A stretch of DNA of 64,000 bases, taken from contig NC_089429.1 of assembly GCF_026210795.1 (NCBI RefSeq), positions 5,270,001 through 5,334,000 on the forward strand, given 5' to 3'. The notes below the pieces were generated by a model. It worked only from the letters and a program-made list of their open reading frames with translations. It made no database searches and had not been told where the DNA came from. The stretch is from Rhizophagus irregularis. Its lineage: Eukaryota > Glomeromycota > Glomeromycetes > Glomerales > Glomeraceae. The position numbers and the translations under genes are program-made. Positions within the stretch are counted from its first letter, which is position 1, and the number at the start of each line of letters is the position of its first letter. Shown here piece after piece: positions 51,102-64,000 of the stretch.

Positions 51102-51422
51102 CTAATCCGTCTTCCTCTTTTTTGCCTCTTTAAGGCATTTATCAATACACTGTTTACAAGCGTCATCAGAATCTAAGATTTTCTGTCCAAGTTTTTTGCA
51201 TTGCCGATTGTAAGCCGTCTGCTGTCTCTTAGCAGCGGTTTCTTTCTTTTTCTCCTTAGTCTTCTTCTTGATCACCCAGTCTATTCCAGTAAAAGTATTC
51301 TTATGCATACCACAAATTGTGCAGTCACCATGCAGTCGGTAACGCCCATTTGTAGTCATATCTTGTATTTCACTAGCTGTCTCAGTTTCCTTCTTGCACT
51401 TTAGGCAGTAAAAACGTGTCAT
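51102..51422 (-). CDS. Small zinc-ribbon protein (DUF5679-like)
   Basis: 106 residues. The N-terminus FYCLKCKKETET ... NGRYRLHGDCTICGMHKN has two CxxC pairs spaced as in the DUF5679 zinc ribbon, common in viruses and virus-like elements, where it usually reads YC-KC ... G-C--CG. The rest is Lys-rich with KKKTKEKKKE and a further CKQCIDKC motif, suggesting nucleic-acid binding. It starts 44 bp from the divergent integrase gene. Function by family: unknown, possibly DNA-binding core or regulator. Confidence 0.75.
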   Translation of the reverse strand: MTRFYCLKCKKETETASEIQDMTTNGRYRLHGDCTICGMHKNTFTGIDWVIKKKTKEKKKETAAKRQQTAYNRQCKKLGQKILDSDDACKQCIDKCLKEAKKRKTD

Positions 51423-51466
51423 TTTAATATTTGAAGTCTAAAACCATTCCTTTAATTTGTCGTAAT
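51423..51466. promoter_or_regulatory. Divergent intergenic spacer between zinc ribbon and integrase
   Basis: Only 44 bp separate the two opposite start codons, so any promoters must overlap. This is inferred from spacing; no specific motif is claimed. Confidence 0.3.
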
Positions 51467-52557
51467 ATGTCACACTTAGAAAATTACTATAAATACTACA
51501 ATCTCTCTGGAGTATCAGCACGAATTCTAAAAGGTGAAGAGCACTACAACCTATACAAAAAGCCCCTAAAGGAAAAGTCAACAGAACGCCCAAAGGTAAT
51601 TGTATGGAAACCAAATGCAACACATCAGGCAAATCTTGCAGAGATGCCAGTTGACCCAAAGGATTCCACTATTTCCTCGTAGTGGTAGAAGTCGCGGGTA
51701 AACGAGTCGACGCAGAACCCCTAAAGGATAAAACTGCAAATAGGATTCTCAATGGATTTGTTAAAATCTACAGAAGAAATCGCATTAAGCCACCAACACA
51801 TCGAATGGAGACAGACTCCGGATCAGAATTCACCAATGATCAGGTACGTGATTTTTTCTTGAACAGCCTAGGGGTGATGATGAGGTTCGGAGAACCAGAA
51901 AGACACAAACAGCAATCATACGCTGAACGAGCTATCCAAGCAATCCAGGAACCTCTCCTAAAACGAATGGTAGCACAGTAGTTGAAAACCGGGGTGACAT
52001 CCGTGGAATGGTCAGAAGATTTCCATAATATAGTGAGTAAAGTAAATGAACTCTGGCAGAGAAATCCCCCAGACATTCTGACAGGGTCACCCAAAGTGTC
52101 AAAAAAGACGGATCTCCTCTCTGAAGGAGCACGTGTCAGAGTCAAGTTAGATGAACCTATTTCTGTACTTGGTAACAAACTTCACGGAAAATTCCGTACA
52201 GGAGATATAAGATGGAACCCAAACATTCGTGTAATCAAAAAAATGATACTCTCACCCGAACAGCCTCCTATATATCTCCTTAATGGACCACATGGTCGAT
52301 TAGGTGTATCCAGATGTGCATATACCCGAAAGGAATTGCAAGTAGTTCCTATTAATGAAAAGCCTCCACCTGACTCTGTGATAAGAGGACAACCTGAAAG
52401 ATTTGTTCCTGAGCAGATACTTCGGCATCGCATTAGAAAAGGTCAAGACCAGTATTTGGTTAAGTGGGAGTGCTATCCAGACACTGAGGCTACTTGGGAA
52501 CCTGCTGACCGGTTGAAGGAGGATGTCCCTGACTTAATTCGCAAATTTTGGGAATAA
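51467..52557 (+). pseudogene. Polinton-type rve integrase with chromodomain, disrupted
   Basis: Retroviral-type DDE integrase expected to insert the element DNA. ATG 51467 begins MSHLENYYKYYNLSG. The first acidic catalytic position lies in THQANLAEMP, where Asn (codon 51632) replaces the usual Asp. Near 51660 one base is missing: the frame leaves PVDP and continues in another frame as KGFHYFLVVVEVAGKRVD. The second Asp is at codon 51814 (TDSGSEFT) and the Glu at 51925 (YAERAI). A TAG at 51979 then interrupts the frame, which resumes as LKTGVTSVEW. The C-terminus (about 52390-52540) is a chromodomain (ILRHRIRKGQDQYLVKWE, ATWEPADRL). Three lesions make this copy very probably inactive. It ends 24 bp from the convergent Gag-protease gene. 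Confidence 0.85.
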
Positions 52558-61728: not shown

Positions 61729-61811
61729 TTGATGTATTTATGAATTGTGTTCAGTTGTAATATAGGTTTTTTATACAAAAAATATAAGATAACTAAGAGG
61801 TGCTTATCTTA

Positions 61812-64000
61812 TTAAAAGGAGTCAATCTTGCTACATACACGATCAAGATCCTCTTCATCCCAGTCATCGACGATTCCATTGGCGGCTTCCCATTCACGTT
61901 CCATATTAGTCTTTGGACGTTCCTCGGGGATCTCTCGCGCTTTTCCTTTATCTGCCCTCATAGTTTCATAACCAGAGGTGGTAGGGATAATCTCGGCATC
62001 AGTATCCTCCTTATATGCTCTTATTAGATCTGCAAGCTCTTTACGACTGGGTGTTTTAGGTAAGTACCCATTATATTCTATCCAGTCCTTGAAGCGGTCT
62101 ACTACTTCCCTAAGGTAGTACTGGTACTCGTCCTCAATACGTGTTGTGGGACATTCCTCTACTTTAAACACAAGTATTTCCCAGTCATAGTCGTCTGACG
62201 CGTCTTGGTACTTAGCCCATAAATCCTTACCTGTATTGTAGAGATCATTGAAGACCTGGTCCTTTGAATTCTTGACCCATGGATTACGATCCCATCGGTG
62301 TCTTTCATGCCAAGCCCAGTGTGCTTGAGTACCTTCCTTTGGTTTAGGGTCCCGGTCAACTTCTAGTTCTGTGTCAGGTTCTGGGATAGGTTGCTCTTCA
62401 GGAGCCGGTTCTGGGTCAGGCTTAGTGACAGATGCAGAAGATTCTGCAGGAGACTCAGGTTGTTGCTTAGGAACTTGGTCTGCAGTTGTAGGATCTGAGT
62501 CAGATAGCAAGTCATCTAAAACGTCATAGTCATTATCAGCTTTAAGTGCAGGTTCCTCATCAGATAGATAACAGTCTGAGAAGCTATCTATAGTTTCATC
62601 AGTATCTGACTCTATAGGAGCTGGAGATTCCTCAGGAATAGGATCCTCATTGATGACAGGTGCGGGTTTTACCTTCAAGCAATCAGGCTTAAGTGGTACT
62701 GGTGGTGGAGTCTTTTTGGAAACTGGTTGCTTTTCAGTAGGTTTTTCTTCAACAGGTTTCTCAACAACTAGCTCCACTTTCTCTTGATCTACTTGCGATT
62801 TACTAGCTGGATTATATATATTTGCCAAGAACTTCACCAAGGCATTTGGATCAGATGCGGGCTTCTCAGGAGTTTCTACATCTATTCCTTCTATGTCTAT
62901 CTCGTCTGTTTCGTGGATCCATTTTTTAGTGAGAAACTTCTTGTAAAGGTCCTCCCTGGATATACTGTAAACTCGTGGTGTTGCCTTACCTACACGTATT
63001 TTTCTGCTATTTATACCCAACTCATTTGATAGGATTCTAGAAGCGTTTATCTTTGATAGGGGTGTAATGCAATGAGTTTCACAATATGAAGTATATACCC
63101 TATAAAATTCTTGAACAGGTAGGTCAGTTATATAAGTGTCCTTTATGAATTGAAATAGGGGTGGGAGAGTTGATATCATGTGATCCTGCTTAGATGTTGT
63201 CATAGGTGGTGGATTTCCATTGAAGTCCGGGTAAGCGTCTGCAATGGCTCTCAAGTAAGCATAGAATGCCTCACTGGCGCCTGGGTATTTCATAGCGTCA
63301 CTGAGTTTCTTAAAGTAGTTGAGGTCTCCCTTGCGGGATGGTGACACATCCAAGAATACTGTGCGCCTATCGTCATTCTCCACTCTGAGAGCATTTTCAT
63401 TGGTGAGTACAATGGTGGATATAAAGTTTTTGTAATGTGTTGGCATCTTGTATTTTTCATGGATTTCCATTATGTCGCCTGTTACCTTATCCTTCAACGA
63501 TCGATACAGATTATTCCACTGGCTTTTTTCTGTAGGCATTTCCTCGAGGAGAAAAAGAACCTTACCCTGTAATTGCCCATTGAAACTTCCAAGAATCGTT
63601 TGAGGATCGCTGGTCTTATAAACAAGTTGAGTACCTAAGACACTACGTTGAATGAAATCTGTTATAATACTCTTACCCCAACCCTGTCCAGATTTCAGGT
63701 AGAGAATCGAATACATTTTCCTTCCAGCTGCCACACCGGCCAACCACTTTATGATATACTCAGTAAGATTCCAATCGCCTGAACACCAGATATCCTGAAT
63801 GTGGGAGAAGATAAATTTAACTGCGAGGTGGGTTGTAGATTCAAAAGTGGATATCGGACGCAGGATATGGAGAAATCCTAGGAAGATATTGAGATAAAGT
63901 TGGCCACCTAGTTTAAAGATACGGGATTTTTGAGGGTCACAGGTAGCTACACATACAGTACTATATTCGATCATAAACCATTTGTTGATATTGAATTCAA
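61812..64000 (-). CDS. SF3 (D5-like) helicase, N-terminus beyond the window
   Basis: The frame stays open to the right edge (upstream of Met 63974 it reads EFNINKWF), so the start is outside the window. Counting from Met 63974: Walker A GQGWGKS at 96-102, Walker B FLLEE at 141-145, motif C STIVLTNEN at 186-194 and the Arg pair in DDRRTVFLD at 201-209, the order of superfamily 3 helicases of viruses and virophages. After about residue 345 the protein is a long Pro/Glu/Lys-rich disordered stretch (EEKPTEKQPVSKKTPPP), then a Trp/Asp-rich C-terminus ending DLDRVCSKIDSF. It unwinds DNA for replication beside the polymerase. An upstream primase part, common in this family, would be off the edge. 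Confidence 0.88.
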   Translation of the reverse strand, partial: EFNINKWFMIEYSTVCVATCDPQKSRIFKLGGQLYLNIFLGFLHILRPISTFESTTHLAVKFIFSHIQDIWCSGDWNLTEYIIKWLAGVAAGRKMYSILYLKSGQGWGKSIITDFIQRSVLGTQLVYKTSDPQTILGSFNGQLQGKVLFLLEEMPTEKSQWNNLYRSLKDKVTGDIMEIHEKYKMPTHYKNFISTIVLTNENALRVENDDRRTVFLDVSPSRKGDLNYFKKLSDAMKYPGASEAFYAYLRAIADAYPDFNGNPPPMTTSKQDHMISTLPPLFQFIKDTYITDLPVQEFYRVYTSYCETHCITPLSKINASRILSNELGINSRKIRVGKATPRVYSISREDLYKKFLTKKWIHETDEIDIEGIDVETPEKPASDPNALVKFLANIYNPASKSQVDQEKVELVVEKPVEEKPTEKQPVSKKTPPPVPLKPDCLKVKPAPVINEDPIPEESPAPIESDTDETIDSFSDCYLSDEEPALKADNDYDVLDDLLSDSDPTTADQVPKQQPESPAESSASVTKPDPEPAPEEQPIPEPDTELEVDRDPKPKEGTQAHWAWHERHRWDRNPWVKNSKDQVFNDLYNTGKDLWAKYQDASDDYDWEILVFKVEECPTTRIEDEYQYYLREVVDRFKDWIEYNGYLPKTPSRKELADLIRAYKEDTDAEIIPTTSGYETMRADKGKAREIPEERPKTNMEREWEAANGIVDDWDEEDLDRVCSKIDSF

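Follow-up and report, generated by a model that had tools for sequence, protein, structure and literature searches.

What takes the place of the capsid genes in a Polinton-like DNA element that carries a Gag protein? The question is raised by a 64,000-nucleotide stretch of the genome of Rhizophagus irregularis, a root-symbiotic fungus (the window; positions 5270001-5334000 of contig 1, in a genome of 146.7 Mb and 32 contigs). A first-pass annotation had described here a compact block of Polinton/Maverick-type genes with a Gag-like protein, an aspartic protease and a coiled-coil protein in its middle, and had proposed that the structural module was exchanged. We found that the block belongs to a complete element of 14,776 bp. 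On balance we favour the reading that this is a Polinton/Maverick-type replicative element in which a Gag of Ty3/gypsy type and an aspartic protease occupy the position of the usual, here unrecognisable, virion module, and which works in the manner proposed below.

The compact gene block lies at 51102..64000 as first described, but the element itself runs from window position 50599 to about 65374, past the end of the window. Extension to both ends revealed a left terminal inverted repeat (TIR) of 464 bp (50599..51062, without strand; blastn, 97.8% identity to its inverted partner) and a right TIR at window coordinate 64911-65374, which is L031:911-1374 in L031, the neighbouring stretch outside the window. 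Both element ends begin with GTCGTC, and AGCCG stands on either side as a 5-bp target duplication. Two further copies have TIRs of about 480-590 bp with at least 99% identity, and a 5-bp target duplication was present in three of three copies (AGCCG in the window copy, AATTC and ATTAA in the others); in the contig 24 copy the unit measures 14,404 bp. Since TIRs and target duplications enclose the Gag block, the unit that moved includes it. The GC content is 40.4% in the element versus 27.2% in window positions 1-47000. With TIRs, the target duplication, a family B DNA polymerase (PolB), an rve integrase and an A32-type ATPase all found, the assignment to Polinton-like elements stands. The window copy is damaged (an early Gag stop, two integrase lesions and an insert in the protease gene), and there are sister copies with the frames open.

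The Gag-like protein, the aspartic protease and the coiled-coil protein were all found in the middle of the block, at 52582-55669. Gag, a capsid-type protein, is encoded at 53634..54890 on the minus strand; the window open reading frame (ORF) of 418 aa is a shortened form of a protein that has 492 aa in a sister copy. Because Pfam alone is weak here (PF03732, E 0.022, below cut-off), the call is carried by homologues and structure. A profile match between the element Gag and a host Ty3/gypsy Gag had P 5e-6, with 0.03 for the best of 21 controls, and the PEG10 capsid matched the element Gag weakly (E 0.007). When a predicted Gag structure was compared with known folds, as the first-pass annotation had proposed, retroviral capsids were the best matches. 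We conclude with high confidence that the element Gag is a true Gag capsid homologue. It lacks a CCHC zinc knuckle, and some 100 additional residues separate the two halves of its capsid region; the host gypsy locus L073 has a knuckle and L074 a degenerate one. Pfam searches with Gag homologues returned other families too; Mis12, for instance, matched 4 of the 40 members (best 4.6e-5). We take these matches to reflect the helical tail of these proteins. Among 23 homologues from metagenomes, compared at the protein level, KKK or QKKR forms the exact C-terminus of 15, and in two more KKK occurs six residues before the end; the others comprise four short sequences and two that differ. The coiled-coil protein (54944..55669, minus strand, 241 aa) overlaps the Gag frame and belongs to no Pfam family. 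In a sister copy it has 266-270 aa and no proline in residues 31-200, and it contains one 28-residue stretch that is hydrophobic at every a and d position.

To place the Gag block relative to the other genes we used searches of the R. irregularis genome that score the best candidates only, so that all copy counts are lower bounds; a few copies are listed as two pieces. PolB was found at at least 71 places, 27 of them full length without a stop, and Gag at at least 102. The Gag places fall into two subfamilies, with 58 showing at least 75% identity and the other 44 less, mostly near 52%. A listed Gag lies within 20 kb downstream at 56 of the 71 PolB places, the ATPase lies on the other strand at 60 and both are found at 55; the whole order PolB-ATPase-Gag-integrase recurs at 49. 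Viewed from the 102 listed Gag places, a convergent integrase follows 1.5-2.4 kb downstream at 94, a divergent ATPase is found within 4 kb at 87, and both at 80. A listed Gag also accompanies 80 of 89 near-full-length integrase places, and the gene order is the same in subfamilies A and B. So many co-linear copies exclude a chance association, and the Gag-protease block is almost certainly an integral part of the element. Some PolB places weigh against this conclusion: 15 of the 71 have no listed Gag in the 20 kb downstream, 12 lack one even when 25 kb to each side are considered, and seven of these 12 also have no listed integrase. We considered whether Gag is missing from some copies; in nine apparent cases, all four that were inspected hold a subfamily-B Gag broken by frame shifts.

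No jelly-roll capsid or adenain was recognised. Pfam searches with 18 proteins gave no capsid match and no Ulp1/adenain protease match, the OTU-like domain of PolB being a different fold. Among the protein families found, no unassigned product exceeds about 270 aa, a size too small for a double jelly roll. With both TIRs in hand, nothing of the element lies further out: the suggestion that a capsid or adenain gene might lie just beyond 64 kb found no support, since the interval from the window end to the right TIR holds no more than the first part of the helicase gene and a single small ORF. A whole-genome search for Capsid_NCLDV produced no match, and its control was equally silent. Nor did the block turn out to be a separate retrotransposon with long terminal repeats (LTRs): no direct repeat flanks it in the three copies compared, no F/YxDD reverse-transcriptase motif occurs in open frames of more than 150 codons in the pieces scanned, and the 18 proteins gave no RVT match. 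Taken together, an integral Gag block and the lack of any recognised jelly-roll capsid or adenain support the proposal that the structural module was exchanged.

The retropepsin-like aspartic protease is encoded at 52582..53496 on the minus strand, in the -1 frame relative to Gag (PF13650, 3e-7, above cut-off). In sister copies its ORF comprises 257-258 aa and the C-terminal IGLSRTCLKRY segment is kept. The active site reads ADTCAN, with DTC instead of DTG or DSG (DTCA in the element versus DSGA in the host gypsy locus L073); Cys replaces this Gly in all 134 matched proteins and Asp is kept in 133, most of these being near copies rather than independent sequences. In the window gene a palindrome of about 134 bp has been inserted without breaking the frame (about 52850-52984). 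It is absent from the other listed protease matches and resembles a miniature inverted-repeat transposable element.

At the overlap of Gag and protease, a run of nine A on the coding strand (53464..53472, minus strand) is a candidate slippage site of the kind used in -1 programmed ribosomal frameshifting. We sampled this junction at 34 loci, corresponding to 33 distinct copies (17 of subfamily A and 16 of subfamily B), and found an A run in every one: A9 in 26 copies, A8 in five and A7 in two, the Gag and protease frames being fused into a 737-aa frame in the A7 copies. Folding downstream of the A run, with models that omit pseudoknots, gave no stable structure (z -0.45 to +1.12). Public gene models (three proteins) join the coiled coil, Gag and protease via introns, the first of which is at the same place in both subfamilies while the Gag-protease intron is not. 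Since the coiled-coil frame past the first intron junction is still coding-conserved (dN/dS 0.18), splicing there is putative.

We also compared nine gene products between one subfamily A copy and one subfamily B copy. The dN/dS values were 0.035 for the DUF5679 protein, 0.07 for the integrase, 0.08 for the ATPase, 0.135 for the protease, 0.39 for Gag and 0.57 for the coiled coil, and 0.10, 0.19 and 0.16 for the small proteins of 186 aa, 192 aa (NPxTGR) and 156 aa. At the level of sequence, these ratios show purifying selection on all nine. Synonymous divergence in this copy pair was 1.2-2.6, near saturation, in the Gag capsid segments versus 0.19-0.86 in neighbouring genes, which hints that the capsid segment may have been swapped between lineages.

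The remaining genes named in the first-pass annotation (PolB, superfamily 3 helicase, A32-type ATPase, rve-chromodomain integrase, zinc ribbon and NPxTGR protein) were all recovered with Pfam matches. PolB (59845..61728, minus strand, 627 aa) matches PF03175 at 1.3e-8, as do 19 of 32 homologues. It probably carries an OTU-type cysteine protease domain near residues 101-201, and residues D114, C115, H195, D357, K487 and D581 are invariant in the 32 homologues. Structural comparison returned OTU and phi29 polymerase among the listed rows at low Z, and a search of the PolB sequence against solved structures gave a single irrelevant match (E 0.86). The helicase, of the D5/DUF5906 type (61812..64000 and on, minus strand; PF19263 1e-16, Pox_D5 0.01), has its gene start beyond the window at L031:2-346. 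The A32/FtsK-type packaging ATPase (55701..56924, plus strand, 407 aa, Walker A GSSDSGKT) matches PF04665 at 9.1e-8, above cut-off, and a PHROG terminase/head-and-packaging family at 3.3e-6. The rve integrase with chromodomain (about 51467..52557, plus strand, placed from ORFs) is broken in the window by a frame break near 51655-51682 and an in-frame stop at 51979-51981; sister copies have 376 open codons, and the sister-copy protein matches PF00665 (9.8e-9) and Chromo (9.1e-18).

Several smaller genes complete the element. These encode the DUF5679 zinc-ribbon protein (51102..51422, minus strand, 106 aa; PF18930, 3.6e-17), the NPxTGR or 2-cysteine (2C) adaptor protein (57514..58092, minus strand, 192 aa; PF08793, 7.8e-4, just under the Pfam cut-off) and two conserved proteins without a Pfam match, of 186 aa (56908..57468, minus strand) and 156 aa (59261..59731, minus strand), the latter with weak PHROG matches (E 0.07-0.09). 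The PHROG search gave no match for Gag or for two small proteins. An ORF at 58777..59139 (minus strand) encodes a small F-box-like protein, the sister ORF matching PF00646 at E 0.014, below cut-off; a second F-box-like small ORF, without a Pfam match, lies at L031:522-899. Interference with the ubiquitin pathway is a possible role for such proteins in a mobile element. Viral contigs scanned with PolB, integrase, Gag, ATPase and a PolB alignment yielded no confirmed relative.

In at least five subfamily-B copies the Gag spacing is 15.06-15.23 kb, with an extra 8 kb between PolB and the ATPase. Considered as a capsid module, this segment proved to be something else in the sole example read (L046, C1:2067400-2077399), where a non-LTR retrotransposon (long interspersed nuclear element, LINE) of about 8 kb is nested in a subfamily-B copy. 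As this long spacing recurs in at least four further copies, the LINE and the surrounding element may have been mobilised together, or the position may be a favoured target. Near the corresponding position, the window copy has a tandem array of a 52-bp unit repeated 4.8 times (58154-58404), flanked by the F-box-like ORF and the gene for the 2C adaptor. The flanks of the insertion site are repeat-rich: 48371-50600 and L031:1386-1756 have segments of 74-81% similarity in common, and the left flank contains a 131-bp tandem unit at 48372-48747. Elsewhere in the window, a gene at 43620-47243 contains some 31 copies of a 108-nt repeat that looks Sel1-like by eye, with an inverted partial copy of the gene at 16049-16675, 27-30 kb away, and 37907-39260 is low-complexity coding sequence rich in S, P, D and K, with PPKSSPPDDSSPS units, long open frames on both strands and a strong GC skew.

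The element resembles Polintons/Mavericks in its size of about 15 kb, its TIRs of several hundred bp and its short target duplications (5-6 bp in Mavericks, 5 bp here), as well as in its DNA_pol_B_2-type polymerase with a probable OTU domain, rve integrase and A32/FtsK-type ATPase. It differs from them in that no double-jelly-roll major capsid protein (MCP), minor capsid protein or Ulp1/adenain was recognised, Gag and an aspartic protease being present instead, and in that its PolB has only about 630 aa. With host Ty3/gypsy elements (Metaviridae) it shares the Gag capsid region, the aspartic protease downstream and the chromodomain integrase; unlike them, it is without LTRs and reverse transcriptase/RNase H, and its integrase lies on the opposite strand. 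Early Polintons without a detectable MCP include that of Glomus intraradices (= R. irregularis) (PMC7805220), and the element described here, from the same species, very likely belongs to the same group; the accessible text reports only the missing MCP of this Polinton, with Gag and retropepsin unmentioned. Maverick is among the recently expanded, partly hypomethylated families of R. irregularis (PMC8647823), the capsid screen of PMC10120064 left out Fungi, and searches of R. irregularis strains using models from other virus groups detected no MCP gene (PMC10640383). As in the module swaps of virophages and Polinton-like viruses (EMALE02; PMC8547959), a whole morphogenesis module would have been exchanged in a Polinton-like genome; there one jelly-roll set is thought to replace another, whereas here the shell type itself would change. 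We found no report of Gag in a Polinton in the accessible literature, outside which the first Maverick/Polinton descriptions lie, so that an earlier description is possible.

We propose, to judge from the families of these enzymes, that the element would be copied by its own PolB and helicase, possibly with protein priming, and that its rve integrase would insert it after making a staggered cut of 5 bp. Gag would be made alone and, through putative slippage at the A run just before the Gag stop, partly as a Gag-protease fusion. Gag would then assemble into a capsid-like shell, with trimming by the protease and perhaps organisation by the coiled-coil protein, and the shell would hold a linear DNA intermediate with the help of the A32-type ATPase. 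A Gag shell around the DNA of the element itself is plausible, and we lean slightly towards it. More tentatively, a Polinton-type DNA genome may have switched its virion lineage from jelly roll to Gag, replicating by PolB without reverse transcription and travelling as double-stranded DNA (dsDNA) in a Gag shell; the lost RNA-binding zinc knuckle and the domain added to the capsid region would then mark the change of cargo.

An integral Gag-protease need not build the element's own shell. It could interfere with or hitch-hike on host Ty3/gypsy particles, or act as a nuclear-trafficking or integration factor, which we consider unlikely though worth weighing: the host has many gypsy Gags (at least 150 PF03732 matches), the element Gag evolves fast, and a missing zinc knuckle together with an altered protease motif is what a co-opted factor might have. 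However, the conserved design of coiled coil, Gag and -1-frame protease exceeds the needs of an inhibitor, and a packaging-type ATPase is kept beside the block. We give distinctly less credence to a capsid-less transposon, or one packaged in trans by another virus, with Gag as passenger or accessory. PMC7805220 records the view that the MCP was lost for a transposon lifestyle in some early Polintons, including that of Glomus intraradices, and a giant-virus insertion in R. irregularis strain 4401 (PMC10640383) means that helper viruses may exist. Against this stand the purifying selection that acts on both Gag and protease between subfamilies at a synonymous divergence of about 0.5-0.95, and the homologues down to 37% identity that keep Gag and the terminal KKK.

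It is very improbable that the element encodes a true jelly-roll capsid that went unrecognised, with Gag as an addition. Trichomonas provides a precedent, its missing MCP having been found later (PMC10120064), no fold is assigned to three of the conserved proteins (156-192 aa), and the search for Capsid_NCLDV was uninformative; the size limit on unassigned products and the possession of both TIRs argue against it. We see next to no likelihood that the Gag-protease block arose from an independent insertion of an LTR retrotransposon or from misassembly. Ty3/gypsy elements, too, typically carry Gag, protease and a chromodomain integrase, but LTRs and a reverse-transcriptase motif are absent as described, the position is constant in most listed copies, both subfamilies have the same order and related proteins occur in independent metagenome records.

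According to PMC10640383 no dsDNA virus infecting fungi is known, which would make a fungal DNA element that forms particles remarkable in its own right. As a virus-like DNA transposon with a retrotransposon type of shell protein and protease as a fixed part, the element would represent a novel type of genetic hybrid. This would answer, for R. irregularis at least, what occupies the place of the missing Polinton capsid, and it makes testable whether Gag shells can carry dsDNA genomes. If true, virion modules would be exchangeable between retroelements and DNA viruses, which would bear on virus classification and on transitions from transposon to virus, and the element would connect the capsids of retroelements with those of bamfordvirus-like DNA viruses.

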